Shown: piece by piece, positions 4,601-64,000 of the stretch
Layout: every line of letters begins with the position of its first letter
Position numbering within the stretch: the stretch's first letter is position 1
Source of the DNA: Lytechinus variegatus
Lineage: Eukaryota; Echinodermata; Echinoidea; Temnopleuroida; Toxopneustidae
Length of the DNA stretch: 64,000 bases
Direction of reading: 5' to 3'
NCBI RefSeq assembly: GCF_018143015.1
Contig: NC_054752.1
Location: 4,265,216 to 4,329,215 of the forward strand
Program-made: the position numbers and the translations under genes
Notes under the pieces: model-generated
What the model was told of the DNA's origin: nothing
Databases searched by the model: none
Seen by the model: the letters and a program-made list of their open reading frames with translations, nothing else

Positions 4601-4984
4601 ATCATAATAGTCAAGCTATGGATAATGGTATGATACTGTACGTAACATTTTACTGGTTCTTGTGGGACTATGCTTTAAGGTGCCCGAGAGTAATTGCATG
4701 CAACATGAAAATGCAGAGCAATGCCTCGAACTTCTATCTTTTTCAAGAGATTTAATTATCATAAAAATTGCTTTGTGTAGAAAATGCCTTTTACCCTCAT
4801 ACACATGATACAAGTAATACATACCTTTCTATCGATCGCTAAGTACGTTATTTTCTGCATGTTAGACACATCAACAAAGGCGATCGGATGCAAGATGAAA
4901 CAGATAGATGTCAATGCACATGAACATTTTGGTTCAAAATTTTTGATGAATTCTTTTTTTTAATATATTAACCGGACTATTCAG

Positions 4985-6070: not shown

Positions 6071-6072
6071 AA

Positions 6073-16900: not shown

Positions 16901-19900
16901 AAGGGAGAAAAATTAGAGCTCAGGTTGTATGAGATATGGGAGGAAAGTAGAGGAAGAAACTATAAAGTGACTAATCTAAAAAAGCTGAGGGAAAAAATAT
17001 GTGTACACAAATGGAAAGTGGAAAAGAAGGGGTAATCAGTCGTTCCCCTCTTGGATGTTCAGGCCATGAGGTTGGATGGTGCGAAGTCGTCTCATCCAGA
17101 GCTTCTCTCTGCTAGTACGGACTGAGTCAGGACGGGTACCTAAAGATTCGATGCCCTGTAGCATCATGTCAGTGATGGAGTGGTTGGGAAGGTTAAAATG
17201 GCGGCCAACTGGAGTGTCCAGCTTTGCTGTGTTGACGGTGGATCTGTGCCCGTAGAATCGTTTCTTGAGTGTGGTCTTGGTTTCCCCTACGTATTGTACC
17301 CTACAAACTCTGCAAGTGATGAGATATACAACATTAGTGGTAGTGCATGTGATGTTACCCTTGGTCCGGTGAGAAAGGCTGGTAGAGTTGCTGGTGAGAG
17401 TGTCGCCCTCATGAATGTGTATTTCACATATGATACACCTGTTGCTGGTGCATTTGAAGGTGCCATGCTGTATGGGAGAAGAATGGTTAGTGAGGGAGGG
17501 CAATTCAGCACGAACAATGAGGTCCCTGAGATTCGGTGGGCGTCGGTATGCTAGAAGGGGAGTATCGGGAACGGCCTGTTGGAGACGATCAGAAGTGTGT
17601 AAAATGTGGTGGTTATCACACAGGATTTTGCGGAGAGGGGGTAGATTGGGATGGAAGGTGGTCACAAGCGGTATTCTGTCGGTAGTCTTGTCACTTTTAG
17701 GTTTGAGAACTTCAGATCTGGGGAGAGAACGAACTTTGTTGATTGCCAGCTGGACTGACCTGGCCCCGTGGCCCCTGGCACAGAGATGTTTCTGCAAATT
17801 CCTGGTATGGAAGGAGAAATCAGGGTCCTCGGAGCAGATGCGGCGAAGTCTGAGGGCTTGACTGTAAGCGATGCCGGTTTTGCAGTGACGAGGGTGGCAG
17901 CTGGATGAGTGGAGGTACTGGTGGGTATCTGTGGGTTTAGTGTACAGGGTGATGGTGATACCGTTAGGCTTTTTCTGGACTGTGACATCAAGGAAGTGGG
18001 TTTCCTGTTGGGAGAAATCAGAAGTGAATTTGATGGTCCTGTGGAAGGAATTAATGTGGTCAATGAATGTGTGGAGGCTATCTTCCTCCCTGGTCCAGAT
18101 GAAGAAAATGTCGTCGATGTAACGCCACCAAATCCAAGGGCGACAGGGGGCTGAATCTAACATCTGCTGTTCCAGCTTGGTCATGAAGAGACAGGCGAAT
18201 GAAGGAGCCATCCGAGTACCCATTGCTGTGCCGAATATCTGTAGGTAGTGCTGGTCCATGAAAGTGAAGTTGTTTTTTGTTAGTACATGAGACATCAGAG
18301 ATTTGATATCGGAAATGGGGGGGACTGGAATGGCCGCTGGCGGCCAAGGCTTCACATGATGCTTTGACACCTTCATCGTGGGGAATATTGGTGTACAGTG
18401 AAGAAACATCCAAAGTGCCGATGATCGCAGTCTCCGGTATCTGGTCTTTGATGTCATTGAGTTCTTTAGTTAAACAAAATTTGTTTCATGACCAAAAACC
18501 AGTTTTGGCGCACTTTTGCTCTCGCCTGGCCCACTGTGCGACGGTGCGCCGCTAAGAAGACTTTCTTTAGTTAATTAATGATACCAGCAAGCATTTTAAA
18601 ATGCTATAGGTCACGTGGTCTCTTACATGGACCAATCATTGCCGTGGATTCTACCCCGTGATAACCGTACGACAACGTCTCCACGGTCATCCTTTTTCAT
18701 CGTCCTGTAAATTTGTCTCAGCAACTATAAGGACTAATGAAAAGCTTGCAGGCATAAAATATTGGTTTGCTGAAATACCGGGGATGAAAATTAATGTGTA
18801 CTCAACGGCCGTTTCCAAACCTTTGTCGCACCATGGCCGTTGAAACATGGTAAAGCAAGTTGGAACTTGGTCTTGGTCTAGTTGATTAGTGCTAATCGGA
18901 ACCTGTACCCGCAGAGGGGCTGATTGAAACACGTCTTCGATTAGTTCTTGAAACCTGAAAAAAGCCTGTAATCTAGCATGTTCCGATTTCCTCAGCTACC
19001 CGGAAAGACTCTACGTAGTCTCTATTTTGGACGTGTCCGCAGCAAGCTGAGAACTACGTCAGTAGCAATTCGGAAAAGGACTTGCAGTACATTTTATCCG
19101 ACAAGTCCTTATTCATCCGGCATTTACCATTGCTCTTAACCGATTAAGATCTAAGAAAGATGATAGATCCGACAGTTTGTTGGACATATTTTTTTCATGA
19201 AACACTTTTCAGGTTATCATATCTCCATCATGCTTATAAGGGTAATGTAATGGCTTGATAGTATAATATTGTTTGATCGTTAGAAAAAAAAATATATATA
19301 CTCACGAGTCTTCTAGTCTGATGAACTCGAAGAAGGCCAAGCTTGGCCAGAATACCATACTACGGTTATCCTCATGATACCAAGGAGAACATGCGAGAAA
19401 CATCCCCTCTGAACTTCCGTATCCAAGATTCACTAATTGCAAGCCTAGATTGAAAAAGAAAATCCCAAAGAACTTTCAATTTGATTGATCATGATCAATC
19501 GCCTACATAACCCTTGTTTTAAACTAATTATATGATCGTTTAGACTCGTCAGACTGATAACATTTCATTTCCAGTAGGGAAATTAATTTTAAAAAAGGGG
19601 CTTAAAGACACGTCAACCCAAATATTCCATTAACTTTAATAATGATAATTACTGTCAATTTTAGTTCATGGTATTCTGAACATATTATCCTGTTCAGTGT
19701 AAAGATCACTGATGAACGACTGAAGAGGTGGACATATGGACAAGATGGAAACGGCGGCATTTTTTTACCTTTCAGAAAGAACATAATTAACATACCTGAA
19801 GCATATTTTTTCTTAAGATCCGGCCAAATTCCAGTGTTATCTACTCCGTATATGAGCTCAAGATTCGGCCACAATCTCCTCATTATGCCATCGAACCCTT

Positions 19901-21292
19901 GTTTGAACTGACGTCTAAGCTCGCCCGCCCTCTCCGGATGACCGTTGCCAAGAGCCTGCTCCAGAGACGATCTGATGCCATCATCATCAAACTTCACCTT
20001 CTCATTAATTGTTCCACGCTCGATATCACAAACAATGTCCTCCCAACATTGCTCCAACTGATTCATCATAGAGGCGAGGCTACCTATAAAGCCGCCACCG
20101 AGTGCTCCAAGATTCGGATCAAGGAGGGCAAACAGAAGATGAATGTAATTCGCTGTTTGAAAGGACTGGATTCGAAAGCCTAAGGGTGGTGTCGAATAGC
20201 ATGATGCAACGAGGCCATCATCCTCGTAAAATGACAAGGCAGACCTGATACTCCCTCCACTTTTAGCTCTAGAAATGACAGGATGGACATATTGGAATAA
20301 CCTTTTCTGAAGGAGTCCGAGGCGTGGGCAGATGTTATGAATATTGGCGAAAAGAATATCGAGTGCGATTGTTAAGACATACTTGTGATTTCTCTGTGGG
20401 AAATACTTTGAGGGACCAGTCGTTCCGGAAGTTTGAATAAACGCGTCTGGTATTGCCTGGGTCATAACACCACGCTCTCCTGCCATCACGCGCTCAATAA
20501 AGGGTTTGTAATCTTCATAGGTCGTCAACGGATGACTTTTGCGGAATTCTTCTACGTTCCGGATGTTCTTCAGCTTAAAGTTCCTTCCGTAGTCGGTGTC
20601 CCCATTCTCCTTTAGAACTCTCATGAGAAAATCTCCTTGCACACACCGTGGGTTTATCCATCCTGCCTTATGTTTTTGGAGGTGATACTTTCCTCTGATG
20701 TAAGAAGTACCAGAATAGTAAAGTTGATGCAGGACCGACAGAACTCCCTGCTGAGGAGATGGACGAAGAGTCAGTATCCACAAGAACAGGACAGAGATGC
20801 ACAGAGCGACAACAACAAGGAATCCTTGACATTAGAAATAGGAAAAATGAAAGCACAAGATTCGTTTCAATTGCAAAATAAATCTCCGAGTGACACCTGA
20901 GAGTTTTCTGATGGAAGCTGTTTCCTTGTTACATTAATGTCTATCTTAACATCCACCTTTTTTCTTGCAGACTTGTGTTTGGATTCCTTGTTTCGAGTTA
21001 CTGCATAATAGTTCAGCCACCTGGGCCTCGAAAGGAGGATATTGTAGTCGGAAAAAGATAGAGATTAGGCCATACAATATTATAATTTCTATGAATTACC
21101 GAATAATATTCTGCCAAATACTACTGATAATGTATCTTTCTGATCACAGAAATGCAAATGTCATGACTTACCATAAAACATTGGTGCCCAGGTTCCGTAA
21201 GGTAATGATGTTGCTTCATAAGTTGCCCGTGCTGCCATGGCTGCTATCGAACCCCATATACCAGAAATGGCAAGTAACTTGGAAGCAAGCAT
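7903..21292 (-). CDS. GH3-family acyl-acid amido synthetase-like protein, 8 exons, 650 aa
   Basis: Exons (minus strand): 21172-21292, 19796-20824, 19306-19444, 18909-18954, 12846-13003, 11737-11885, 8861-8952, 7903-8121. Together they total 1953 nt, phases agree at every junction, and all introns are GT/AG. Exon 4 is the least certain: its donor GTACAG is weak, and one six bases downstream (GTTCCG) also keeps frame. The protein has a hydrophobic N-terminus, a likely membrane helix at residues 41-58, TSGTTGPSK at 172-180, GYGSSEG at 391-397, GLYRYRVGD at 471-479 and a C-terminal QYKVPR near 629. These match the three nucleotide-binding motifs of the GH3 branch of adenylate-forming enzymes, which in plants join amino acids to acyl acids. 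Animal members (GHDC and relatives) have no settled substrate. Length and domain coverage look complete. Introns are loaded with transposons; intron 7 is almost wholly a LINE tail. Confidence 0.88.
8126..8803 (-). mobile_element. LINE 3' fragment filling GH3 intron 7
   Basis: The minus strand encodes a 97-residue piece with RICPVCSTFVEDEYQFTVHC, a Cys/His cluster typical of the C-terminal end of some non-LTR retrotransposon proteins. About 380 bp of AT-rich 3' sequence follows, ending in CTTTTGAATTTGAATTTG. The reverse transcriptase is absent, so this is a 5'-truncated copy. It spans nearly the whole intron between GH3 exons 7 and 8. Confidence 0.65.
9040..9745. mobile_element. Kolobok-like MITE with long inverted arms
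   Basis: The left arm (GAAAGTTATGACATCTTAAA, preceded by TTTTATTT-like sequence in reverse) and the right arm (GAATGTCATAACTTTCTTAT, then CATCCGATTTTGATGAAAT) are complementary over more than 100 bp. The ends carry CCACCCAAAA and TTTGGGTGGTGG. The same arm sequence occurs in 23035-23366 and, more diverged, at 53873-54066. It lies in GH3 intron 6. The superfamily call rests on the TTAA-flanked relative at 56581. Confidence 0.55.
10079..10570. mobile_element. Inverted array built from TTCGTAATTCCGAAGG units, copy 1
   Basis: The left half is a direct array of GGTTCGTAATTCCGAA and GTTCGTTAGTCCGAAAACG units. The right half (from about 10291) is the same array inverted (AACGAACCTTCGGAA). The result is a nearly 500-bp foldback structure in GH3 intron 6. 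A second copy, split by a SINE, is at 43140-43850. ORFs on both strands are artefacts of the repeat. Confidence 0.75.
10943..11682. mobile_element. Non-autonomous element with three tandem GTTAGCGCTAAC units
   Basis: Three units of roughly 230 bp start near 10975, 11210 and 11480. Each includes a TGTTAGCGCTAACA palindrome or a decayed version, followed by CAATCCGAAAGATGTGACT-like sequence and a CTTACTG...GGCTAACAACG block. The ends GGTCTGGTCTAAATCTG and CACAGATCTAGACTAAG are weakly complementary. It lies in GH3 intron 6, just downstream of exon 6. Confidence 0.5.
11886..12845. other. GH3 intron 5, nothing further recognised
   Basis: Intron between GH3 exons 5 and 6. No transposon end, tRNA or additional exon was recognised. 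Confidence 0.5.
13227..13285 (-). repeat. Short dispersed repeat (paired with 18503-18556)
   Basis: On the minus strand this reads TTTTGTCGCACTTT then TGGCCCACTGTGCG, closely resembling plus-strand sequence at 18503-18556 (TTTTGGCGCACTTTTG, TGGCCCACTGTGCGACGG). The two form an inverted pair within GH3 intron 4. Confidence 0.4.
13596..14333. mobile_element. piggyBac-like MITE with TTAA target duplication
   Basis: TTAA at 13596-13599 and 14330-14333 flanks an element starting CCCTAAAAAGACTGGG and ending CCCAGTCTATTTAGGG. Subterminal GGGGGCTGATTCAGCCCCC palindromes occur at both ends. TTAA duplication with CCCT-starting ends fits piggyBac-type elements; Kolobok is the alternative. No transposase is encoded. 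It lies in GH3 intron 4. Confidence 0.75.
14334..16020. other. GH3 intron 4, left part
   Basis: Mostly unrecognised AT-rich sequence. Near 15053-15118 there are two copies of a 32-33 bp unit containing AGCGATATACAGTAGGACTT. A pyrimidine-rich stretch lies near 15355. ORFs here show no family resemblance. Confidence 0.35.
16025..18475 (-). mobile_element. Penelope-like element, 5'-truncated
   Basis: The minus strand encodes the C-terminal half of a Penelope-like reverse transcriptase (DVSSLYTNIPHDEG, GTAMGTRMAPSFACLF, RYIDDIFF, ETHFLDVTV) followed by a GIY-YIG endonuclease domain (VVYLITCRVCRVQYVGET). The main frame is 17036-18457. The N-terminal part is missing and the copy is broken, with about one further break. 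A 3' tail runs to about 16025 and includes TCGAAAGCTTAGGCCCC, which I associate with this group. It sits in GH3 intron 4 in the same orientation as the gene. Confidence 0.85.
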
Positions 21293-26902: not shown

Positions 26903-29900
26903 TGAATTATAATAATATAATAACTTGAACTTATATAGCGCTTTTAATGAAATCATATCAAAGCGCTTTACAATGTAAAACATACAAAATATACAAATTA
27001 GAAATCATTAAACTGAGAAAAAAAAAAAAAAAAAAAATTCAAGGACACTGTAAATGGGGCGATGTTGGATATGCTTTCTTCATGAGGTACGTTTTTAAAT
27101 TTGATCGAAATGAAGTGATATTTGAGATGGAACGAAGGGAAGCTGGAAGAGTGTTCCAAAGACGTGGGGCAGAGCTTGAAAAGGACCTATCACCAAAAAT
27201 TTTAGTTTTTGCTTTTTTGACTGTTAAGAAATTTTGATTTGCAGAACGAAGGGACCTACTTGGAGTATATGCCTGGACCAATTCGGAGAGATATTTTGGA
27301 GCATGTCCATGAAGAGATTTGAATGTTAGGAGTAGAATTTTGAATTGTATACGGAATTTAATGGGGAGCCAGTGCAATTGTTTAAGAGTAGGGGTTACAT
27401 GGTCATGTTTTTTAGTGAGGGAAACTAGACGGGCTGCAGAGTTTTGAATTCTCTGCAGCTTAGAAATATCCTTTTCTGGAATTCCATGGAGCAGGCTATT
27501 GCAACTGTCAAGAAGTGAACTAATAAATGCATGAATGAGGACTTCAGTAGATGACTTTGAGAGATATTTTCGAATTTTACCAATTTTTCTTAGGGCGAAG
27601 GATGCTTTACGACAGATGCTGTTGACATGGGGACGCATTGAAAAGTTCTTATCAAACAAAACACCTAAGTTAGTAACCGTTTTAGAGGGATGTATATGAA
27701 CATTTGCAATTTGAATTGGAGGTAGCTCAGGGGTACGTCTACGATGGGAGGAGATATGCAGGACTTCCATCTTATTATCGTTAAGGAGTAAATAGTTCAC
27801 AGTCATCCAGGAACGAATGGCACCAAGACAATCTTCCAGTTTCTGCAACATTCGGAGAGCTTGTCCAGACTTGAATGAGATATATAATTGTGTGTCATCA
27901 GCATATATCATAGACGAGAAACCATAGGAATGAATAAGATCTTCCAACGGTGTCGTGTAGCATGTAAAGAGTACAGGCCCGATAACCGAACCTTGCGGCA
28001 CCCCCCATTTAAGTAGAGTAGGATCAGATCGTGAGCCGTCAATGATCACCTGTTGATATCGTCCAGTGATGTAAGAGTCAAACCACTTTGCTGCAGTCCC
28101 AGAGACACCAAATCGTGTTTTCAGCCTGGAAAGAAGAACATCGTGATCAACTGTGTCGAAGGCTGATGTTAGGTCCAAAAGTATGAGGATAGCATCATCT
28201 CCGGTATCCAAAGCTTGTAGAATATCATCTTGAACACGAAGTAGCGCAGTTTCCACACTATGATCTTTTCGATACGCAGACTGTCGGGATGCGAGAAGGG
28301 AGTTAGCAGTAAGGTATTCAGTAAATTGATTTGAGACAACTCGTTCTATTACCTTACCCAAAAAAGGTAAATTTGAAATTGGTCTGTAGTTCCTTAAACT
28401 TTTTGCATCCAGTGACGGTCTCTTTAGGGTGGGAATGACCAAAGCAGATTTGAGCGCCGAAGGGAAGACTCCGCATTCTAGTGAATCGTTGGTAATATCC
28501 GTGATAGGCGGTACCAGGAACTCTAGACACTGGCTAAGAATTTGCGCTGGAAGAGGATCTAGGCCACATGATTTTATTTTATGTGACCTGATAATCTTTA
28601 GAACATCTGCTTGGGAAACTGGTGCAAACTTCTCAAGACGATGATCACAGGCTTCCCCCTCCACAACAATAGAAGAGGAAGAAAATGAAGATCTCAAATG
28701 TTGAATTTTACTGTAAAAATACTTTAAGAACTTCTGGGCAATCTCAGCACTTGACTGATGTGGTGGCAATGATTTATCAGGCTTTTCAGCAGTCATCTTG
28801 TCAATCACATGAAACAGTTGTTTGCTGTTGCTAGTGGATATAAGTTCTTGAAGATGCTGACTCTTAAAGTTATTGACAAGTTGGTAATATTTTCTCGTTG
28901 CTTCCTTCATGTCGTCAGATACAACTGTTGTAGATGAACGCTTGGTCTTTCTCCATCTCCTTTCCCTTGCACGAAGGTCTTGTTTGGCATTGCGGATTGA
29001 GTCGTTGTACCAAGGAGCATAGGGACGCAATCTCACTTTCCTTTTCTTGATTGGAGCGTGGCGATCTAGATTAGAAGCTAGAGAGTCATTGAAAACATGT
29101 ACCTTCTGGTCAATTTCCATTTCCTCTAAGTTTGTAACTGCTTCGAAGGACTGGATGATATCTAACTTCAATTGATCAATGTCAAGTTCACGTAACATAC
29201 GGGCATGAATGACATTAGATGTTGGCGATGTTCTCACGAAGGGGAGTGAAAAGATTATTGCAGAATGATCTGATGGCAAAGTCTGGGTAACCACAATGTC
29301 CCTTATTGAGTGATCATTATCCCTCATAATTACCAAATCAAGAGTGTGTCCTTTAATATGAGTTGGTTTGGATATACGCTGACTCAATCCCGCTGACTCG
29401 AGTAGATCTTTAAAATTCTTTGCATCTGCATTTGTGTCACTGTCAACATGAATATTGAAATCACCCAAGATAACCACTTGATTCAGAAGCAAGTTGGCCG
29501 ATTCAAGAAATTCTGAGAACTCGATCAGAAAATGTCCAAATGACTGGCCACGCAAGCACGATGGTGGTCTATAGATTACAAACAAAGAGAGACTTCTCTG
29601 GCTACTCGTCTTTCTAGAGCTTACAGTCACCTCAAGGCATTCAAATGTGTCAAACACATGTGGCTGCTTTTTAGTAGAAAAAGAATTTCGCAAAATTACA
29701 CAGAGACCACCACCCCTCTTTCCTTTTCTGGGTAGTTTTAATAGCTTGAAATCCTGAAGTGTATTCTGTATGCCTGCTATTGTGGGAGAGTCTCTTCCAT
29801 CCCCTCTGAGCCACGATTCTGTGACAACCAAGACGTCAAGGCGTTCCGAGATGATAAAGTCACAAACTTCAGTCTCTTTGTTCATCAAAGATCTAGCATT

Positions 29901-30950
29901 CCAAAGTCCAATCTTTGTTGGAGAATTTTCATTTTCCTGGAGACTAGTGGTTTGTGGGATTTGCCTGAGATGCTGTGGTGGATGTTTGCTTTTGAAGGCA
30001 GATGCTCTTGATGTCCTAGAACTAATGACCACGGGAATGTAAGTGTCCTTTGGCTCTGCAACTTCAACAGATCCAAGCATGGTCAAGGATGGATTCTGAC
30101 GAGGCTTTCCTCCCCGTCTTTTACGACGAGTTCTCTTCTTCCGTTTCACCGATCTTCCTGTATCATGTTGCGAGATTCCAAGATCCAGTATAAGGTTTCT
30201 GACATTCATTGGAGGCTGTGCATGTGTCAAAATCCATGATGACTGATTAATAGACTTCATATATAGAGGATCATATCTATGCATAGCAGAAGGTATGTCA
30301 GACGTGCCAGTAATTCTGATCTTAACACCAGATCCATCATGTTCTACTGGGCCAGGATTAGGACACACGTCACCACATTTCATTAGCTGTAGTTGAAAGG
30401 ATGATGATGTGTTGGCATAGTACGGGATAGGGAGTCCAGAGAACTTCCTCAACACTTTGGGGTGACTTGAATATACATTGGTATCCTTGTACATACATGT
30501 GTGTGTAATACATGACAGTTGAAAGTTTGGTAGAGAGTGGCTGCATACTAGTACAATAAGATGAATAGATAGAAGATTAAGTAACTCCATTGTTCCATAG
30601 AAAATAAGCACAAACACTCAATGGAACAAGTTCAAAGGCTGGCTGATCATGAAGAATAGGGAGTCACAGTAGAGGCTTCTATGATGGCTGACTGTAGCAG
30701 GTTGATGCTCACTCCATTACAAACTTGATGAAATTTGTCTTACACTTATAGAAAGAAAACAGCAACAAGGATCCATCCAAAAAATGGCTACAAAACTCCA
30801 GGTAGTTGGATTAACACACTGGTAACCACAAATTAACCAAAAATTGCCAATAACATAGATAAACAATGAAAAATTCAGAGAGCCAAAAAGAGAGCGCCTG
30901 AAAGGGCGCTCAATCTTTTTGCGATTGTTGGGTATTATCATTTACGCAAA
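26903..30950 (-). mobile_element. CR1/L2-type LINE, apparently full length
   Basis: The element runs from a 5' region of about 330 bp (to about 30950, boundary approximate) through one long ORF to a 3' tail containing AAAGCGCTTTGATATG and AGCGCTATATAAGTTC, ending in a TTATTATA-type repeat near 26906. An A-run of about 19 bases (plus strand) lies just past the stop. Coding capacity looks intact, which suggests a young insertion. Confidence 0.8.
27039..30617 (-). CDS. LINE ORF: endonuclease and reverse transcriptase, 1192 aa
   Basis: A single uninterrupted frame. Residues 1-30 are hydrophobic. Residues 82-90 read GDVCPNPGP, a 2A-like NPGP motif. A basic stretch (RKKRTRRKRRGG) lies near 158-170. 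An apurinic endonuclease-type domain spans about 234-458 (IGLWNARSLMNK, TESWL, LGDFNIH, LPSDHSAI). Reverse transcriptase spans about 680-990, with LDLTSAFDTVDHD, WGVPQGSVIGP and YADD at 905-908. The C-terminal region (LQRIQNSAARLV, LHWLPIKFRIQFKIL, PRLWNTLPASLR) is typical of CR1/L2-clade elements. The product would copy its own RNA at a nicked target. Start at 30617 chosen as first ATG of the open frame; MEL eleven codons later is possible. Confidence 0.85.
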   Translation of the reverse strand: MFVLIFYGTMELLNLLSIHLIVLVCSHSLPNFQLSCITHTCMYKDTNVYSSHPKVLRKFSGLPIPYYANTSSSFQLQLMKCGDVCPNPGPVEHDGSGVKIRITGTSDIPSAMHRYDPLYMKSINQSSWILTHAQPPMNVRNLILDLGISQHDTGRSVKRKKRTRRKRRGGKPRQNPSLTMLGSVEVAEPKDTYIPVVISSRTSRASAFKSKHPPQHLRQIPQTTSLQENENSPTKIGLWNARSLMNKETEVCDFIISERLDVLVVTESWLRGDGRDSPTIAGIQNTLQDFKLLKLPRKGKRGGGLCVILRNSFSTKKQPHVFDTFECLEVTVSSRKTSSQRSLSLFVIYRPPSCLRGQSFGHFLIEFSEFLESANLLLNQVVILGDFNIHVDSDTNADAKNFKDLLESAGLSQRISKPTHIKGHTLDLVIMRDNDHSIRDIVVTQTLPSDHSAIIFSLPFVRTSPTSNVIHARMLRELDIDQLKLDIIQSFEAVTNLEEMEIDQKVHVFNDSLASNLDRHAPIKKRKVRLRPYAPWYNDSIRNAKQDLRARERRWRKTKRSSTTVVSDDMKEATRKYYQLVNNFKSQHLQELISTSNSKQLFHVIDKMTAEKPDKSLPPHQSSAEIAQKFLKYFYSKIQHLRSSFSSSSIVVEGEACDHRLEKFAPVSQADVLKIIRSHKIKSCGLDPLPAQILSQCLEFLVPPITDITNDSLECGVFPSALKSALVIPTLKRPSLDAKSLRNYRPISNLPFLGKVIERVVSNQFTEYLTANSLLASRQSAYRKDHSVETALLRVQDDILQALDTGDDAILILLDLTSAFDTVDHDVLLSRLKTRFGVSGTAAKWFDSYITGRYQQVIIDGSRSDPTLLKWGVPQGSVIGPVLFTCYTTPLEDLIHSYGFSSMIYADDTQLYISFKSGQALRMLQKLEDCLGAIRSWMTVNYLLLNDNKMEVLHISSHRRRTPELPPIQIANVHIHPSKTVTNLGVLFDKNFSMRPHVNSICRKASFALRKIGKIRKYLSKSSTEVLIHAFISSLLDSCNSLLHGIPEKDISKLQRIQNSAARLVSLTKKHDHVTPTLKQLHWLPIKFRIQFKILLLTFKSLHGHAPKYLSELVQAYTPSRSLRSANQNFLTVKKAKTKIFGDRSFSSSAPRLWNTLPASLRSISNITSFRSNLKTYLMKKAYPTSPHLQCP

Positions 30951-36522: not shown

Positions 36523-37010
36523 GACTGTGGTGTTATTCCGGAACTTTGGAAAACATCATCCATATAGTTCCTATTCCAAAAGTCAAGAACCCGGTTGATA
36601 TGAATGATTATCGACCGATTGCGTTAACATGCAGTATAATGAAATGTTTCGAGAAACTGATGTTAAAATATCTGTTGAAACAAACAGAGGCCCACTTAGA
36701 TCCATTACAGTTTGCTTATAGATCAAACAGGGGAGTAGAAGATGCAGTTTTACTGCACTTACACAGACTGTGGTGTTAATCCGGAACTTTGGAAAACATC
36801 ATCCATGCATAGTTCCTATTCCAAAAGTCAAGAACCCGGTTGATATGAATGATTATCGACCGATTGCGTTAACATGCAGTATAATGAAATGTTTCGAGAA
36901 ACTGATGTTAAAATATCTCTTGAAACAAACAGAGGCCCACTTAGATCCATTACAGTTTGCTTATAGATCAAACAGGGGAGTAGAAGATGCAGTTTTACTG
37001 CACTTACACA
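36523..37010 (+). repeat. 243-bp tandem duplication within the LINE
   Basis: Sequence from GACTGTGGTGTTATTCCGG (36523) to 36765 is repeated from 36766 to about 37010, with two extra bases near CATCCATGCATAG. The duplicated part covers the start of the reverse transcriptase (VIPELWKTSS through VEDAVLLHLH). It splits the LINE frame. Confidence 0.85.
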
Positions 37011-41873: not shown

Positions 41874-41874
41874 T

Positions 41875-41945
41875 GTCTCTGCCGGGAATCGAACCCGGGC
41901 CCCCAGCTTGGAACGCCGGTGCCTTAACCACTAGACCACAGAGAC
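41875..41945 (-). tRNA. tRNA-Gly (anticodon UCC)
   Basis: The minus strand folds into a complete cloverleaf. The acceptor stem GTCTCTG/CAGAGAC has 7 perfect pairs. The D arm is GTCT/AGGC. The anticodon stem CCGGC/GCTGG carries loop GTTCCAA, giving anticodon TCC. The T arm is CCGGG/CCCGG with loop TTCGATT. No intron. One base past the acceptor, TTTTTT forms a Pol III terminator. A SINE head is the alternative, but the perfect stems and immediate terminator favour a functional or recently functional gene. Confidence 0.7.
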
Positions 41946-45000: not shown

Positions 45001-46086
45001 TTAGTTCCGAACAGGTTCCAACGACTTCCATACTTTTTTCATTTTGTCCACCGACAGTTCACACTTAAGGTAATCTCCGGGTTGTCTCCCAGGATGAAGT
45101 CTCTTAAAGGTGTTCGCTCTGTCAACAATACCCATACCTCTTGATATCAAAAGTCTACCACAGTAAACATCGTCAAACGGTGTTTTTGGAGGCAGTTCTT
45201 TGGAAGATTCGTAGACTTTTGCTACGGCATCACGCGACAGCACATAACCATGACCAAATGGATACACCGGGTAAATGTCATCTGGGAACATTTCCTTCGG
45301 GCAGTACCATTTGCTGTTCACATCTCGTATCGGGGCAGTGGAGGTTGGCCATCCCAGGCAGAAGTTCGTACGAGACTCCGGTAGCGTTGTCAAGTCCTGG
45401 ACAAGGTTGGCAACGTCGATCATTACGTCATCGTCTGTTGACATCAGAAAGTCACTGTGGCGGCAAAAGTTTACGGTCCATTTGAATCCCATGATGAGCT
45501 TGATGGTAAGGTTGTAATAATGGTCTCTAAAACCGGCCTGCAGAATATCCCCGTGTAGTTTGGACTCCTCTCTTACGCGATCCTGGTCAGCTTCCTCCTT
45601 TGGGTTTCCTAGGATGAATAGCACCTTAGCGGGCATTCTACTCTCCTTGACAAACCTGATGTAAGTTTCCCGGATGACCTCTCTGCGTGAAAAATGAGAA
45701 GGTGCCGACTTTACCAAAATTAGTAGTGTGGTATTCCCTTCCTTACACGTATTCTCAGGATTGAGTACAAAATCATAGATGTCCAATTTCGGTCCTGATG
45801 CCATGCCTGGTACCCAGTCCACATTTTTGAGCCATCCGAGCGCTAGTAGTTTTGGCCGCAACGTCGCGTGTTGACCAGGCATTGCACTTGCGTTTTTGCC
45901 TCTCTGTGAATCAGATATGACAGACGAAAAGTGATTTGGGCCTCGTTTCCCAGCGGCTCCGGATCTGAGCCTCAACGATATTTGATTTACAATGCCCGCA
46001 TCCAAGACAAAAATGAATATGCATGCACATAGAGACGAAATAAGGCAAAGCATCACCACTATCCCCTTCAAATGAACTCGTGCCAT
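45001..46086 (-). CDS. GT31 beta-1,3-galactosyltransferase-like protein, single exon, 361 aa
   Basis: Expected to transfer galactose or N-acetylglucosamine in beta-1,3 linkage onto glycans in the Golgi lumen. It has a short cytosolic tail and a membrane anchor at about residues 8-28, making it a type II protein. Family motifs in order: RREVIRETY (134-142), KVLFILGNP (154-162), NLTIK (192-196), the metal-binding STDDDV (216-221), YPFGHGYVLS (275-284) and FDDVYCG (304-310). Possible N-glycosylation sites are N65, N118 and N192. Length fits the family, and lack of introns is usual for this group. The acceptor cannot be decided between galactosyl- and N-acetylglucosaminyl-transferases. All key motifs are present, so it appears functional. 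Confidence 0.88.
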   Translation of the reverse strand: MARVHLKGIVVMLCLISSLCACIFIFVLDAGIVNQISLRLRSGAAGKRGPNHFSSVISDSQRGKNASAMPGQHATLRPKLLALGWLKNVDWVPGMASGPKLDIYDFVLNPENTCKEGNTTLLILVKSAPSHFSRREVIRETYIRFVKESRMPAKVLFILGNPKEEADQDRVREESKLHGDILQAGFRDHYYNLTIKLIMGFKWTVNFCRHSDFLMSTDDDVMIDVANLVQDLTTLPESRTNFCLGWPTSTAPIRDVNSKWYCPKEMFPDDIYPVYPFGHGYVLSRDAVAKVYESSKELPPKTPFDDVYCGRLLISRGMGIVDRANTFKRLHPGRQPGDYLKCELSVDKMKKVWKSLEPVRN

Positions 46087-46528
46087 CCTCTTGTTATATG
46101 ATTCCAGAATAATAAGTTTATATCAAATGTTGTGCCGTACTATCGGCGATGTTTTAGAGATTTCTTGAAAACCCGGTAGCTTGTTCAAATGTCTACAACG
46201 TGGTTGTTCCAGAAAAAAAAAATATGGGAGGTATCGCCTAGATAGGCAAATCCAGGTGGCATGGTTTCTAGCGCTAATTGATTTGTGTGATGACACGGGA
46301 GGTCTGATACACGGAGACAAAATAATGTCTGGTATATATTCTAACACCAGATGATATGCGTGCTCATTGATTCTAGCAACGTGAGTGGGTGGGGCACTGT
46401 GTTTTTAGTACTCCTATTACCGAACTACATGCACATCAGCTGGCACTGTCTTATCTTACCGAACTGGAGAAAGAAGGCTATGATTTCATTCTCAGTCTCG
46501 TATTCCACAACCATTAAATAGAAACATC
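46087..46528. other. Upstream region of the galactosyltransferase gene
   Basis: Presumed promoter and 5' untranslated region of the minus-strand gene. No clear TATA box or other element was recognised. A long foldback element starts at 46529. Confidence 0.35.
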
Positions 46529-54066: not shown

Positions 54067-55160
54067 TTCAGGATACATCTGCCTCCTTCAGGGTTGAGGT
54101 TTCTTTCAGATGGTTTATTTGGCATGTGTGTATGGCCAGGCCTTCCTTCGCCGACGCCCCAATACAAAAGTGACTGGCGCGCTGGAGTGATTGAAGGGCG
54201 CCATCATTTGGTTGGGTTTTATTTACAGTATAAAAATCACACTAAAATGCATTGCGTAAGATATGAGAATGAATATAAATATATAAACATGCGCATAAAG
54301 GTATACGGATGGATCGGTCTATTCAGAGGCATTCATATAATGGCTCTGTTCTTCCTAGAGGTCCAGTAATATTACATGTATTTCTACTACTACTCCGAAT
54401 ACTATGCCTACGATCACCCAGACCGCAGGTCCCTATGCTAATATATGCCCAATTCATCTGTACATTCATCCAAATCCTCTCATGGCTGAATCCCTCCCCT
54501 AAAAAAGTCTCATGAATCTTGACATTTTCTTTTTTCAAAGAATGAACCAAATTAGTCCTCAAGTCAAAATAAATGCCAATACACAATTGGATAGAGTAAG
54601 TATTTCTCTTTCATATTGGTCATTCATCATGTATGAAATATTTTGAAAAATAAGTGAAGTATAGGGCTAAAACTGTGCCTCAAAACTGAGTTTTTTCTCT
54701 TTTTTTTCAAATGTAAAACATTTTATTTTGAGCCTCAAAAATATCTACATGTTTCTCAGCACAAAGTTAAACTTCAGAGGCAGCCGTAGCTCAGTCGGTT
54801 AGTACGTAAATATATGTGTTTGTTATATGTGCTTTCGTTGCACGGATATGTCCTTCCGTTTCGCCGCACATCGATTGTCAATTAATAACAATAGAGCACG
54901 AGTATGCGGCACGACCACTTGATTTTTTTATTGGTTTTAGTTACAATGTTTAAAGCAACTCTATCTGCAAGGGGCCCCAGCTAGATCCACGAACGGACGT
55001 GCAAGACAGATTGTGACCGAGCCTTTGTGACCAAGGCTACAGGACTATAACGTACTTCCTATATTATTCTAACCGTTTAAAAGGTTGAACAGGCCATTTT
55101 CCTCGATATAGTTCAAGTAAATCTTGGCAAGAGGTGCATATTTACGTGCTTATTCCTTCA
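54067..55160. other. Upstream region of the second GH3-like exon
   Basis: No gene recognised. A tRNA A box-like piece (GCCGTAGCTCAGTCGGTTAG) at 54784-54803 has no following B box and is probably a SINE stub. Confidence 0.35.
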
Positions 55161-55164
55161 ATGT

Positions 55165-55173
55165 AATATAAAT
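55165..55173 (+). promoter_or_regulatory. TATA-like box for the second GH3-like gene
   Basis: AATATAAAT lies about 75 bp before the start codon at 55244, giving a plausible transcription start near 55200. Confidence 0.35.
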
Positions 55174-55243
55174 CTGCGGTAACACTGTGAATAGAAGATA
55201 GAATTGAACCATTATCGCTTCAGATTTAGAAGTGAGCAACACA

Positions 55244-55358
55244 ATGGTTGCTTTCAAGTTACTCATCATTTCTGCGATTTGGGGTGCGATTGCAGCCTGG
55301 TCCAGTTATCGAGCAGCAGCTCTTTCACATGAGAGGGGATGGGAATCATTATGGTTTG
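55244..55358 (+). CDS. First coding exon of a second GH3-like gene (partial)
   Basis: ATG at 55244 opens MVAFKLLIISAIWGAIAA, almost the same as exon 1 of the GH3 gene (MLASKLLAISGIWGSIAA). The exon is 38 codons plus one base, against 40 codons plus one base in the other gene. Both end in G followed by GTAAGT, so length, phase and donor agree. The N-terminus is hydrophobic, as expected for a membrane-anchored or secreted start. No later GH3 exon is seen between here and the window end, so the rest should lie further on the plus strand. A retained orphan exon of a dead duplicate is the alternative. Confidence 0.6.
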
Positions 55359-55607
55359 GTAAGTGACATGAATTGTAATCACTCCTCATTTTACTGTCAA
55401 ACACACCCGTCTAAGTCAAGATTGGTATAAAAGGACCTCGATACAATAGCCGCCGTTGGTGCGTGAAGTCGAGGTACAATGTGATTATCATTACCCTTAT
55501 GCATGTCTCCATATTATGTACAGGTGATATCATGATAAGTTCATGAAGTTAGAGATTACCGTTCTATTCCAATAAAACATAAGCACAACACTCTTGCCAG
55601 GTAGAAT

Positions 55608-55775
55608 CATAGGCGGCGGAAGCGGGGGGGGACCCCTCTAAATTTTAGGCGGTCCCCCCCCCCCAACTCCTAGACTGATAACCTTTTTTTGGGGCCCTTG
55701 TCCAATTTTTTACCTGTGTCCATCCCAAAATTTCAGGTGGACACCCCCTAAATATTTTGGCTTCCGCCGCCAATG
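55608..55775. mobile_element. hAT-type MITE, copy 2
   Basis: GGTAGAAT at 55600-55607 and 55776-55783 is an 8-bp target duplication. Ends CATAGGCGGCGGAAGC and GCTTCCGCCGCCAATG match copy 1 at 34771-35013. 168 bp, G/C-run rich. Confidence 0.85.
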
Positions 55776-55955
55776 GGTAGAATGAATGCTAATCTAGAAA
55801 TAAAGTGGCGATGGGGCAACCGGTGAGCTGGCGCTGGGAACGATATTTTCAAAAGGGTGTGCTGTATTTTGTTGAAGAATATACCATATGTCTGTAAGTG
55901 GCGGACTTATGGCACCTAGTAAAAACATGCCCCAGTCTTGCATCAAGTCCTTCGT

Positions 55956-56164
55956 AAAGGCCTGGTCACACCACCCGAGCGTAACGTTGTTGGAGCGGTC
56001 GTGGAGCGGAGAGAAAAAAATCGCCGATCTCTACCGTTCACCATTTTCGATTGTTTTTATTTTGTTTTCGATTTTCCCCCCAATTTTGTGAGCGAAATTC
56101 GACCCTTTCTCCCTACCGCTCCACGACCGCTCCAACAACGCTCGGGCGGTGTGACCATGCCTTT
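55956..56164. mobile_element. MITE family 1, copy 2
   Basis: AAGGCCTGGTCACACC and GGTGTGACCATGCCTT are the inverted ends, flanked by TA on both sides, suggesting a TA target duplication (Tc1/mariner-like). Interior closely matches 6073-6266. Confidence 0.75.
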
Positions 56165-56580
56165 AGTTTGTGGACAACTTTGTGAAAGATCCGAAAGCGT
56201 GAATTCTGTATGACTCTTTAGAAGCGGATGAGTTATTGTTGGTTAATCTGAACAATGGCATTCACAATAGATTTCCCAGGGATTTGACCCCGATATGCTA
56301 ATTCGCCTTCTTTTGTGTTGTACAAGCTATGATTATTGCTGCGCAAAATTGTTTACTTCTTCAAAGTCACTGAAAAGGTCAACATATTTGCGAAAATATT
56401 CCTGGCTGTGGAAAATAAAAATAGTCAGGTATTGGTTGTGAATATACCGCATTAACACCATTGAAACACAGGGGATACGACATTTGCTGGGGCGACATCT
56501 GCTCCGGGCTTCATTTGTCTAAGATATAGGGTTCAGGTTGAAATGGGGTTTTATGTTCGGTTTAGGTTAGGGTATAGTTT
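56165..56580. other. No recognisable feature
   Basis: Intergenic or intronic sequence without recognised elements. Confidence 0.35.
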
Positions 56581-57070
56581 TAAAGGGGAAGGTCATCCTG
56601 AAGATAAGTTTGTTGTAGAAATAATAGTAAAAACAAATATTGGTGAAGGTCTGAGAAAAATCCGTTAAGGATTATGAAAGTTGAAAAAAATCTAAGCTTT
56701 TGATTTTTGACGTCATAAACGAGCAGCTCTCCCCAAAATACATATATTGTATTAATTTCTTTTTTATTATGGCTCCTGATAACATATTTTTGTTTTCTAT
56801 TCATGATAAGAGTGTGAAATTATTTTTCTATTGTTATTCAAAAGATATAGTAAAAACCACTTTTAATTTTCTTAGAAATTGACATTTCATTGATGTTTAA
56901 ATTACCATTTGCTATGAAGGAATGCTGCGCCAATAGGACGTAACAAAATAATTAAAATTCTAATAACTTTTTTTTACGGATTTTTCTCAAACATTCGACA
57001 ATATTTTTTAAATATTCATTTTTTGTTATTTTTACAATAAAAGTTTTGTCAGGGTGAACTTCCCCTTTAA
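56581..57070. mobile_element. Kolobok-like MITE with TTAA target duplication
   Basis: TTAA then AGGGGAAGGTCATCCTGA at the left and TCAGGGTGAACTTCCCCT then TTAA at the right. About 490 bp, no coding capacity. The TTAA duplication and AGGG start fit Kolobok. Confidence 0.65.
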
Positions 57071-57384
57071 ATCCAGGGTTGAATTTGACCATTTCATGGT
57101 TAATGTGTGGAATTTGCCATTTTGGCCGAAGCAAACGCGAACGTCATGGAACCCCCCAAAAGAATCAAAATCAATAGATGTGAAATAATGAAATGAATGC
57201 TATAGGGAAGAGTCTGTTTCTTCGCAACGGTTGTAGAGCAGAAGTGCATGGGCCAAATAATCAAAATTATAATATAGCATTTAGAGTGCACCATATCCAA
57301 TTTCCTCTTCAGAGGGGCATAGAAAATAATCATAGAGAAGGGGGGGGGGGCTTATTTCGAATGTGATGAAAAAAGGGGCCTATT

Positions 57385-57882
57385 GCCCGTATTCTAAAGT
57401 CAGGTTTAAGTTAGACCATGGACTAACTCTTTGCTAAAATTATGGGAAGTCAAATATGTATACATCGTATGCCGCTCATATTTACAGTGCTTTTTTCCAA
57501 TTCTTTATGGTGAAGACAACTATCTTATTCATCTTCCCCAGAAAATTAGGAGTTATTCGAGACTGAAATGAGCTAATAAATATGATAATAACGTTTAATT
57601 TACCCAGGGTAGCCACTTCAATCATAAGACTGCTCTTTCGGCGGGCACTGCATAACATAATATGTTATTGTTACCCTTCTCAAGTCTAACTGCTGAGCGC
57701 CAAGCAAGAAGGCAGAAGGTCACATTTTTATAAGTATTTGGTAAGACTCTGCCAGGGATCGAACCCACGACCTCCCCTTCATGAGGCGGACGCTCTACCA
57801 CTGAGCCACCATGCCCGGGTATTAATCAACCTCTACAACTTTAAACCAAAGTCTAAATTAAACCTGACTTTAGAATACGGGC
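57385..57882. mobile_element. MITE with GCCCGTATTCTAAAG ends, invaded by a SINE
   Basis: GCCCGTATTCTAAAGTCAGG and CCTGACTTTAGAATACGGGC are perfect inverted ends. A tRNA-derived SINE at 57600-57818 occupies the interior. Confidence 0.75.
57600..57818 (-). mobile_element. tRNA-derived SINE
   Basis: On the minus strand, GTGGCTCAGTGGTAGAGCG (A box) and GGGTTCGATCC (B box) start the head at about 57818. The body ends with AACAATAACATATTATG and GCCCGCCG. The anticodon stem is decayed. Confidence 0.7.
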
Positions 57883-58022
57883 CAATGTCTTAAAGTTGGC
57901 TTTGAACGACTTAAAAGACTCGGCAATGTGTATTGTTGAAGAGAGTGCATTCCACAAATTTGCAGCACTATTAGCAAAAGATTTTTCACCAAATGAGCTC
58001 TTGATTTTACGAGGTGTCAACC
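57883..58022 (-). mobile_element. CR1/L2-type LINE C-terminal fragment
   Basis: The minus strand reads TPRKIKSSFGEKSFANSAAN and LWNALSSTIHIAESFKSFK, the C-terminal pattern of CR1/L2 elements. It lies between two MITEs, so the parent copy has been split. Confidence 0.55.
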
Positions 58023-58024
58023 CG

Positions 58025-58193
58025 GGGGCCGTTTCATAAAGCTGTTCGTAAGTTAAGAGCGACTTTAAGAACGACTGGTGAACCTTTCTTACGCGCTTAA
58101 CCATCACCAGTGAATATACCATTTACCACAAGAAAGAATCATCAGTCGTTCTTAAAGTCGCTCTTAACTTAAGAACACCTTTATGAAACACCC
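58025..58193. mobile_element. MITE family 2, copy 2
   Basis: GGGGCCGTTTCATAAAGC with TTAAGAGCGACTTTAAGAAC at the left and its inverse at the right (TATGAAACACCC). Same family as 6267-6446. Confidence 0.75.
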
Positions 58194-58357
58194 ACCTGGG
58201 GCCAGTTGCATAAAACTTTTTACCTGAGAAAACTCAGGTTGTTTTTTACCGAGTTTTTGCCCTGTGTTAAAGTCAATGGCAGAAACCAGACTAACCTTAG
58301 TTTTCAGATTTTACCAGAGTTTTCTCAGGTAAAAATTTTTATGCAATGGGCCCCAGG
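58194..58357. mobile_element. MITE family 3
   Basis: CCTGGGGCCAGTTGCATAAA and TTATGCAATGGGCCCCAGG are inverted ends, followed inward by ACCTGAGAAAACT and its complement. About 164 bp. Confidence 0.7.
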
Positions 58358-58379
58358 TTTCCGAAGATCTTAAATTCAT

Positions 58380-61300
58380 AGTCCGGCAGCCCAGGAGGTT
58401 TATTCAACCGAAAGCCGGACAAGCAAATGACCCCATAGCTGGATGGCATGGACCTTGAAGTTTACAAAAATGCATTGCTGCCGGGTTCTATGCGTGGTCT
58501 TCCCTCCGAAAGGACGTAATATATGACGTCACTACAAAATGGCCCTATTTCACCAATTTTCAGACTTTCTACACATAGCATGAAGTCAAGGGAGAATATC
58601 TCAGCCAAATCATGCTTGTTTCGTATGAAACTTTCACAATATATTGTTCAAGTAGTGCACAAGAGATATGCAAAATTTCACGAACAGAAATTATTGTTTA
58701 CATATGCAAATTACGTAATGAAATTTGCATATCATTAGTTTTGGAGATTTCTTGCATAAAAAATTGTCGAAAATCGATTCAGAAATTTATTTTCTTTTTT
58801 AGTGTACTTTATTTGATATTTTTCCTCTCAAGCATAATATCATTGTCTTTATCTATATCTCTACTTTAAGAAAATATATAACAGTAATTGAAAAAGACAT
58901 TATAGACTGTGATTTCAGCCCCCTTTCCAATATGGTGCGCACATAGAAATCGTGCGTTTTTGGCCTATTTTCACCATATAGCTGAGGTGGGCGACCGATA
59001 TGCCTACTTTATTAGTGCTTCTTGCATTTTGCATGATATTAAATCTTCCAAACAACATATTTTCATCTTCATTTTGACTCTGGTGATACATCAATGATTT
59101 CAGCACAGATTGATTGCCCATTGGGCAGTCTATAGGCTACGTTTTCAGCCTAGTTTTCAACAACGAACCTATACCATGTAAGACTGCATCGTTGTAGTCG
59201 AGTCGGATAAGAGGTTCCTGTGTACCATCAAAATATTTTTCACTTAATTTTTCAATCAACGTTTTGGTATTTGTCTAAACTGTCTCGTTAATGAATCTTG
59301 ATGTTCCCTTCCCAAAATCGTGTCCAACGGGGTTCAAAATTGATATCTTTGGCGGCCCTCTTGGACTTTTTAAAAATGAAAATCAATTATTTTCATATTT
59401 TATTGCACAGAGTCTGACAATGGGACAATCTTTTAATCAATACGCATTTCTCTATGATTGGGATAGTAGAAATAGATTTAATTCGTTTTCTGATGATATA
59501 TTTTGAAATAAAATTTATCCCGAAATGGGCATGATTTTGGTCAAAAATTTGCATGTGCATTGATTCTATCTGTTCAATCATTAACATCAACAAATATTTC
59601 AAAATACAGCATTCGACACGAGATATAATATACCGATAATACTGTAACGCTTCCTGACAGTATGTATGTCTTTATTTGCTTAGTTAAAGGGCAAATACCA
59701 TTATTACCCATTTATTGGAAAATATGCCACTTTGGAGCCCATATTAAGGCAAAAAACGTTTCTGATATGGAATAAAGCCACTTTCATTCTTTTTAAACTA
59801 CATGGAGATAAGAAGGGTAGAGTTTCCTCTATCTGCTACTAGCATACTGAAGCATACCCACTTCAGGGAGCGTCGAAATCACCCATCCTTTTTCATATTT
59901 TACCTATTTGTGGGAAAATATGCTTTTTCAAGCCCCCATTGAGGCAAAAAGTGTTGCTGCTATGTAGTACGGCCACTTTCATTGTTTTTAAACTATGTGG
60001 AGACAAGAGTAGAGTTTCCCCTATCTGCTACAAAAAAGGTGTGCTGGTACAGCAAAGCCTACCCCCTCTGAGGACTGCTGAAGTTACCGGATAATTATAC
60101 GTATTTTGCCCATTAATGGGAAAATATGCTATTTTCGAGCCCCCATTGGGGCAAAAAGTGATTCTGCTATTTAGTAAAACCACGTTTATTATTTTCAAAC
60201 TATATGGAGATGAAAGAGTAGAGTTTCTTCTATCTGCTACATATAAAGAGGTGTTGGCATATTGGAACATACCCTCTTAGGGGGTCACCAAAATCACCTA
60301 CCCTATTTCATATTTTAATTATTTATGGGAAAATATGCTATTTTCGAGCCCCCATTGAGGCAAAAGGTGTTTCTGCTATGTAGTAAAACTACTCTTATTG
60401 CTTTTAAACTATATGGAGACAAAAGAGTAGAGTTTCCTCTATCTGCTACATATAAAGAGGTGTTGGCATATTGGAACATACCCCCCTTAGGGGGTCACCA
60501 AAATCACCTACCCTATTTCATATTTTAATTATTTATGGGAAAATATTCTATTTTCGAGCCCCCATTGAGGCAAAAGGTGTTTCTGCTATGTGGTAAAACT
60601 ACTCTTATTGCTTTTAAACTATATGGAGACAAAAGAGTAGAGTTTCCTCTATCTGCTACATATAAAGAGGTGTTGGCATATTGGAACATACCCCCCTTAG
60701 GGGGTCACCAAAATCACCTACCCTATTTCATATTTTAATTATTTATGGGAAAATATTCTATTTTCGAGCCCCCATTGAGGCAAAAGGTGTTTCTGCTATG
60801 TGGTAAAACTACTCTTATTGCTTTTAAACTATATGGAGACAAAAGAGTAGACTTTCCTCTATCTGCTACATATAAAGAAGTGCTGGTACAGTAAAGCCTA
60901 CCCCCTTTGGGAACTGCCAAAGTTACCCGCCCCTTTTACGTAATTTGCAAAATCATGGTAAAATGTGCTATTTTCGAGCCCCCATTGAGGCAAAAGGTGT
61001 TTGTGCTACGTAGTAAAACTACTCTTATTGCTTTTAAACTATATGGAGACGAAAGAGTAGAGTTTCCTCTATCTGCTACATATAAAGAGGTGTTGGCATA
61101 TTGGAACATACCATCTTAGGGGGTCACCAAAATCACCTACCCTATTTCATAATCTAACTATTTTTGGGGAAAATATGCTATTTTCGAGCCCCCATTCAGG
61201 CAAAAAGCGTTTCTGCTATATGGTGAAGCCAGTTTCATTCTTTTGAAACTACATGGAATTAAAGGAGTAGACTTTCTTCAATCTGCTGCCACAGCAAAGT

Positions 61301-62449
61301 CTATCCCCTCCGGGGGTTCCGAAAGTCACCCACCCCTTTTCCATATTTTTTCCAATATGGGGAAAATCTGCCAATCTTGGAGCCTCTGAAGAAGGTAGCA
61401 GTCGATGTGCCAGCACTTTTTTTTTACATGTAGCTGATAGAAAAAAATGCCTCTTCTTTTATTTTCAAGTGGTTTCCAAATCAAAGCTAGCTTTACAATA
61501 TAGCAGAAATGCCCTTTTGTCTGAATGGGGGCTCAAACATTGCATTTTTTACAATAAAGAATGAAAATAGACATATGTAACTGATAAAGAAGATCCTACT
61601 TTGTCATCTTTATGTGGTTACAAAACAAAAACAAGGGCTTTACCGCAAGGCAGAAACACTGTTTGCCTCAAAATGACTAATTTTCCGAGAAACTGGCAAG
61701 ATACGAAAAAAAGATTGGGTGACTTTGGCAGCCCCCTGAGGGTTAGGCTTTGCTATGCCCCAATTTCTTTATATGTAGCTGATAGAGAAAAGTGATTTAA
61801 AGGAAAAAATTACATACTCAAAACAAAATTTTACCACATTGGGGGCTCCGAAATGCACGATATCATAATAGTCAAGCTATGGATAATGGTATGATACTGT
61901 ACGTAACATTTTACTGGTTCTTGTGGGACTATGCTTTAAGGTGCCCGAGAGTAATTGCATGCAACATGAAAATGAAGAGCATTGCCTCGAACTTCTATCT
62001 TTTTCAAGAGATTTAATTATCATAAAAATTGCTTTGTGTAGAAAATGCCTTTTACCCTCATACACATGATACAAGTAATACATGCCTTTCTATCAATCGC
62101 TAAGTACGTTATTTTCTGCATGTTAGACACATCAACAAAGGCGATCGGATGCAAGATGAAACAGATAGATGTCAATGCAAATGAACATTTTGGTTCAAAA
62201 TTTTTGATGAATTCTTTTTTTTAATATATTAACCGGACTATTCAGAAAACAATTTCAACCGATTTCTACTATCCAAATCCTAGTGAAATGCGTATTGATT
62301 TAAAATTTCCCATTGTCAGACTTTGTGCAATAAAATATGAAAATAATTGATTTTCATTAAAAAAAGTCCAAGAGGGCCGCCAAAGATATCAATTTTGAAC
62401 TCTGTTGGACACGATTTTGGGAAGGGAACATCAAGATTCATTAACTAGA
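58380..62449 (+). mobile_element. Foldback-type DNA transposon, copy 2 (right arm truncated)
   Basis: From AGTCCGGCAGCCCAGG at 58380 it follows copy 1 almost base for base through the left arm, the monomer array and the inner 200 bp of the right arm. It then stops abruptly at CATTAACTAGA (62449), the position corresponding to 5188 in copy 1. The remaining 0.9 kb of right arm is missing. It probably lies in the first intron of the second GH3-like gene. Confidence 0.8.
59716..61790 (+). repeat. Internal monomer array of foldback copy 2
   Basis: About nine direct monomers (starts near 59716, 59911, 60117, 60327, 60537, 60747, 60957, 61166 and 61363), then inverted monomer sequence, in the same order and with the same variant units as copy 1. 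Conservation of unit order shows the array was copied as a block. Confidence 0.8.
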
Positions 62450-64000
62450 ACTGCAATCGTTTCAGAACGATGTGCATGCATTGACGCCTCTGATTTAATA
62501 GAGGGCAAGAAACAGAAAGAGATAGAAAGAAAACTGTAGATGATATACATTCTCAAAATATTAGAGGACGCTATTTCTTAAAGGAATGGTCACTGATGCG
62601 TAAAACACAGATTATGTGAAATGATACAATTGGCAAACCCTGAAAATATGAGACAAAAATAAATTCAAAGGAAGTTATGGCAATTCAACAATTTTAAGAC
62701 TTTGCAATAGAGGGCGCTATTTCTAAAGTTATGGTCACTAATTATGGATAACATGTCTACCAAATTAGAATGAATTTTGATGAGGAACGGTGGCAGGGGA
62801 GGACTAACAAATATTACATGTTAATCAAATTGGATATTAGCACTTTTTGCTGTCCATAGGAAGTTACATTCTCGAGTAAAATTTTTTAGACCATATTGGC
62901 GGCCCATACGTGGTTGTTGAAAATGTGTGCATTGTGAGCAGTATACCATGTGTTCAGATTGACTTATCTTGAAATTTTCTGTTGTAACCTATGTCGTATT
63001 TGGTATCACTGGAAAGAGTATTCCAATGCGGTGACATTGATACCACTTTTATTTGTGTGGAGGCAATAGACCGGAAGTAAATGCCATATAAAGAAAGACA
63101 TTAAAAATGAAGGTTTTGCACAATAATTTTAAGCTACCGTCAGCAATTTGTTAGCTTCTGTTACAAAACATTAACGAACTGTTTAAGTATATATCAATAC
63201 TCATATCTGCCAAGTTAAAAAGAATAAGCTTCAATAATAAGGAAATAAGAGCAAGTTGAAGTTGTGCTGGCAGTAAAGTGCATTTTTGGGTATTTTGCTG
63301 ATTTTCGGGAGCATTTTTCAGATATTTCGTCAGTTGTAAGGTATATATTTTTTTAAATGGCATGAAAGGGCATATCTTGAAGACCCTAAATCCAAGAAAG
63401 GGTACGGGTTTGGCCATGCATGACGCAATGAGGGGCATTCAAAGGTAAGCGTTTTTGAAACTTTAGAGGGCGCTATTTCAATGACGGAAGATCAATGATG
63501 CGTGAAAACTTAGTAGCATGTATGTTATGATACCGTGATCAATTTCTGAAAGAATGAGCGCAAAATGAATAAAAACACAAAAGTTACGGCCATTTTACGA
63601 TTTTTAGACATTACATTTCAATAAATATGAAGTTTTTGAAGGAAGGCTATTTCGGATTTGAATTTAAGGCATAAAGATGGCATTTTGAAGGTCAAGTTAT
63701 ACGTCGCAGATGATGGAGCAACTCTTGGACTATCTATAGCAATTTGTTAGAAGTCTGTAGCATGCAGGATAACTGAGATATGAAAGAATGAAGAATGGTA
63801 TGCAAATGGACTTGAAATTGACAAAATGGCGCCTGGATGGTCATGCATGAGTGATTTTGGAAAGTGGAAGACGAGAGGCACAACTAGGGATGCTGGACAA
63901 CATGTCTACCAAATTTGGATGAATTTGGATCAGGGACGGAGTCAGGGTAGAGCTAACAAAACCATGTGTTAAACAAATGGGATTTTGGTGGAAGAAGAAG
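62450..64000. repeat. Degenerate repeat region
   Basis: AGAGGGCGCTATTTC recurs near 62560, 62703 and 63465. ACATGTCTACCAAATT with ACGG...CAGGG...GCTAACAAA recurs near 62750 and 63903, a spacing of about 1.15 kb. This points to an old large-unit repeat cut by the window end. No gene recognised. Confidence 0.5.

Follow-up and report, generated by a model that had tools for sequence, protein, structure and literature searches.

Does the plus-strand stretch at 55244-55358 encode the hidden first exon of a second GH3 gene, divergent from the one on the minus strand of the same window? By the window we mean the whole 64,000-nucleotide stretch of DNA analyzed (C13:4265216-4329215, in a genome of 869.6 Mb and 33 contigs), and coordinates above 64000 continue its numbering. 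The first-pass annotation had raised the question from a pattern, M-x-A-x-K-L-L-x-I-S-x-I-W-G-x-I-A-A, common to this stretch and to the first exon of the minus-strand gene (gene A), and the coordinates, strand, phase and donor that it gave are exact. The candidate first exon of the plus-strand gene (gene B) is 115 nt long, i.e., 38 codons and one base, and reads MVAFKLLIISAIWGAIAAWSSYRAAALSHERGWESLWF plus that base before GTAAGT (phase 1, donor G/GTAAGT). The first exon of gene A (21292-21172, minus strand, 121 nt) reads MLASKLLAISGIWGSIAAMAARATYEATSLPYGTWAPMFY plus one base from 21292, is also in phase 1 and has the same GTAAGT donor. The two exons lie on opposite strands, 33,952 bases apart, in keeping with the separation of about 34 kb proposed earlier.

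The rest of gene B was found past the end of the window. Inside the window, the plus strand after 55358 gave no tblastn match to exons 1-2 of gene A (E up to 10), and nothing better than E 0.6 with gene A exons 1, 3, 4 and 6. The 100 kb past the window was searched by tblastn with the gene A exons; exon borders were read from the sequence and the exons were then joined into gene models. The annotation had predicted a hydrophobic, phase-1 GH3 exon on the plus strand beyond 64000, and there is such an exon 2, with the hydrophobic start GFLAVATCCISILFLW, followed by exons 3-7. This exon begins with GFLAVATCCIS, 12,854 bases downstream of exon 1; it opens with GFLAVATCCISILFLWVLTL in phase 1, and TTTTCCAG stands directly before it. 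On the plus strand, exon 2 spans 68213-69241, exon 3 70198-70336, exon 4 70877-71041, exon 5 72168-72316, exon 6 74607-74725 and exon 7 75334-75552. The seven joined exons form an open frame of 644 residues from 55244 to 75552, in which every exon is homologous to its gene A counterpart, all borders are GT/AG and the phases agree. With GH3 exons 2-7 downstream in an open joined frame, the proposal that a second GH3 paralogue, divergently oriented, has its first exon hidden here holds, and the sequence makes it highly probable that 55244-55358 is the first coding exon of gene B, a plus-strand member of the GH3 family that is complete in seven exons.

Intron 1 is 12,854 bases long in gene B, compared with 347 in gene A and 3,730 in a third gene of the cluster, gene C. 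Its in-window part covers 55359-64000 (plus strand), and the remaining 4,212 bases lie beyond the window. Within it lies a repeat copy (58401-62449, plus strand) that is 98.8% identical to 1132-5188 and holds an inner 210-base tandem array. This repeat, which looks like a foldback-type element, has two copies of at least 4 kb in the window (1132-6071 and 58401-62449; 98.8% identical where both are present), each with inner arrays of 209-210 bases, and the left copy has inverted ends of about 1.17 kb at 90% identity.

The same kind of first exon occurs in related genes. A short ATG exon with M-x-[AS]-x-K-[LF], phase 1 and a GT donor, followed by a GH3 exon 2 on the same strand, is clear in genes A, B and C and in C17b, a gene on another chromosome whose exon 1 reads MISSKLLFISGLWGAIAGYLAYRTAYSPFGSLESMIY in phase 1 before GTAAGT. 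Another gene on that chromosome, C17a, has a weaker candidate, MSSSKFVVLSMISGTLSALLATHAGTKSIQNCLF, in phase 1 before GTGAGT. In gene C, exon 1 lies 3,730 bases before exon 2 and shares 35 of 38 residues with gene B; the linker encoded by exon 1 differs between gene A and genes B and C. The substitutions within exon 1 show pN 0.33 and pS 0.43 for A against B, and 0.30 for both measures for A against C17b; between B and C all three changes are non-synonymous, with 0 of 26.8 synonymous sites changed. From these sequence comparisons, exon 1 by itself appears to be under little protein-level constraint, which fits an anchor whose exact residues are of little importance or a relaxed constraint, and which alone is no proof of function.

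This weak constraint, together with the young repeat in the long intron 1, might suggest that the exon descends from a genuine first exon but has become stranded, i.e., that gene B now uses another promoter and first exon and that 55244-55358 is unused. However, the open frame, the intact donor and the matching phase have all been maintained since the split from gene C, and by bases exon 1 is the best kept of the seven exons between B and C (97.4%; others 85.4-96.4%), while the 325-column block around it is only 80.3% identical. Nor was any alternative hydrophobic ATG-to-phase-1 first exon for gene B found on the plus strand at 46200-68212, where the second of two such frames reaches only 0.91 and is insufficiently hydrophobic. 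We thus consider an unused exon improbable. The TATA-like box that had been attributed to gene B is present upstream of exon 1 (TATAAAT, 55167-55173, plus strand), but the corresponding position in gene C has TATGAAT, so that the box is weak evidence.

The preferred reading, 55244-55358 as exon 1 of gene B, was also weighed against a chance resemblance or a different gene with a similar leader exon. Exon 1 of gene B matches no Pfam family, and its structure is not in itself informative: the window has two ATG-to-phase-1-GTAAGT frames of 91-151 nt, and 50 shuffles give a mean of 1.1, so about one would arise by chance, although the two found are exactly the first exons of genes A and B. The argument rests on sequence similarity. 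An ungapped alignment of the two genes that starts 12 nt ahead of the ATG and runs to the end of codon 18 has 53 identical bases out of 66; across the full exon, 79 of 112 aligned bases are identical. A BLOSUM62 score against gene A, anchored at the ATG and taken over 18 codons, is 62 for exon 1 of gene B; gene A scores 85 with itself, the next best of the 2839 ATGs in the window reaches 22, and 200 dinucleotide-shuffled windows give at most 30. That A, C and C17b each have this exon ahead of their GH3 exon 2 likewise speaks against a chance resemblance or a different gene, and the GH3 exons downstream on the plus strand refute this reading, to which we give almost no credence. No match to 54800-56000 was found among plasmids.

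Gene A comprises seven exons and 637 residues from 21292 to 7903 on the minus strand. Following exon 1, these are exon 2 (19796-20824), which encodes the GH3 N-terminal domain (PF03321), exon 3 (19306-19444), exon 4 (12846-13010; GH3_M, PF23571, E 1.2e-21), exon 5 (11737-11885), exon 6 (8861-8952) and exon 7 with the stop codon (7903-8121). Its intron 3 holds a 477-residue frame (17036-18469, minus strand), presumably Penelope-like, whose matches to reverse transcriptase and GIY-YIG are weak and in both cases fall short of the Pfam cut-offs. A galactosyltransferase gene had been placed between the 5' ends of genes A and B, and an open minus-strand frame with a Galactosyl_T domain indeed lies there (45001-46122; PF01762, E 9.3e-41). 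Additionally, the window contains a retrotransposon frame of 1192 residues with endonuclease and reverse transcriptase domains (27039-30617, minus strand), near the start of which the sequence GDVCPNPGP resembles a 2A self-cleaving peptide. A 245-base tandem duplication (36523-37010, plus strand; 2.0 copies, 98%) is located between the two reverse-transcriptase-like frames of one element and probably breaks its frame. An Rfam scan returned one tRNA, a tRNA-Gly (TCC) at 41874-41945 (minus strand, 60.8 bits), and nothing besides.

Genes A and B belong to a cluster of at least four GH3 genes on one chromosome, A (minus), B (plus), C (plus) and D (minus), which with relic pieces lies within about 155 kb; no GH3 exon was seen in the 10 kb that precede the window. 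Gene C has seven exons and 644 residues (91201 to 108588, plus strand), and gene D is open over exons 2-7 (161354 to 157159, minus strand). In A, B and C the reading frame stays open up to the stop codon, and exons 2, 3, 4, 5 and 7 are equal in length across these three genes. Genes A, C and D have the domain set and exon phases of gene B, with 65-87% identity among the four, while intron lengths vary widely. The relics inside the cluster are exon 2 fragments with stop codons (131626-130300, minus strand) and a weak, lone exon 3 piece (113622-113699, plus strand; tblastn E 0.001). No recognizable exon 1 was found in the approximately 22.6 kb upstream of exon 2 of gene D; it may be further away, too diverged, or lost. 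Exon 1 may therefore be dispensable for some copies.

The first-pass annotation had described A and B as an inverted duplicate pair. The two genes are divergent as described, but they are not each other's closest relatives. Protein identity is 0.696 for A-B, 0.686 for A-C, 0.698 for A-D, 0.874 for B-C, 0.674 for B-D and 0.648 for C-D, and a tree of 21 of the 27 exon 2 matches in the genome (L033, L041, L044, L045, L046 and L047, which are shorter pieces or contain stops, were left out) groups B with the same-strand gene C at 100/100 support. Genes A, D, C17a, C17b and the B-C group belong to one clade (98/99) within which their order is not resolved. The dS is 0.80 for A-B and 0.165 for B-C, with dN/dS of 0.24 and 0.39, respectively. 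A and B are thus divergent neighbors in a larger cluster and not a sister pair, and the newest duplication in the local cluster is the tandem pair B/C. That gene B could be an assembly artefact, a haplotype copy of gene A put in the wrong place or orientation, is hardly conceivable, as the A-B dS and 70% protein identity are far too diverged for alleles and there is no N in the window or the following 100 kb.

Gene B is an ordinary new member of the known GH3 family. It scores 206.6, 94 and 69.4 bits against PF03321, PF23571 and PF23572 (cut-off 23.6 each), and in gene A, too, the GH3, GH3_M and GH3_C models exceed their Pfam cut-offs. The motifs SGTTGPSK (residue 171), YGNSE (390), YRIGD (460) and NQYKVPR (622) are kept in gene B. 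In GH3 proteins, SGTT..K, Y.xSE and YR.GD are nucleotide-binding, and NQYKVPR is the C-terminal lysine segment. Gene B shares its GH3 domain architecture with the plant acyl acid amido synthetases (4b2g, GH3-1; 4epm, GH3.12; 5ech, JAR1), and the best solved plant match is 4b2g (residues 89-632 of B, E 2.9e-54), with SGT-, Y-x-x-SE, YR-x-GD and NQYKVPR common to both in the alignment. By name only, gene B can be likened to the vertebrate GH3 domain-containing protein, GHDC, which we take to be an animal GH3-family protein. A GHDC-like, vertebrate-type assignment was rejected for gene B, since the model PF25146 (GH3_N_vert) gives 20.3 bits for B, and 28 for A, against a cut-off of 34.1.

Compared with plant GH3 enzymes, the gene B protein is longer by about 85 residues at its N-terminus, and this extension contains two hydrophobic segments. 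They cover residues of about 1-20 and 38-60 (hydropathy means over 15 residues reach 2.13 and 2.52), so that exon 1 would supply one short hydrophobic segment at the N-terminus plus a linker, and a second and stronger segment would come from the beginning of exon 2. The enzyme part (about residues 87-635) would then be tethered to a membrane, perhaps that of the ER. Judging from family knowledge, the gene B enzyme would use ATP to convert a carboxylic acid into an acyl-adenylate and then transfer the activated acid to an acceptor, which in plant GH3 enzymes is an amino acid. Both the membrane anchoring and the enzyme activity are predictions from hydropathy and motifs.

The whole-genome search gave 27 GH3 exon 2 matches, 21 of them long and uninterrupted. 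Many are on contig C13, and they include the near-identical pairs L027/L028, L037/L039 and L031/L034. Scans of viral and genome contigs with the gene A protein yielded no relatives. To our knowledge, the roles of animal GH3 proteins have been little studied; the literature matches listed deal with plant GH3 proteins or mention GHDC in passing, and none of them is a functional study of a GH3 enzyme from an animal. It is a tentative possibility, and rather a doubtful one, that this genome holds an unusually large GH3 set in which one subgroup, with a fast-diverging N-terminal membrane-anchor exon, conjugates small acids in ways undescribed for animals. What might interest specialists is how large the GH3 family of this genome is. 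For gene B itself, a first exon of 115 bases that lies 12.85 kb from the rest of the gene could be recognized via its paralogue, by pattern and splice phase. This exon gives gene B its correct N-terminus, and may decide whether the enzyme is membrane-bound.
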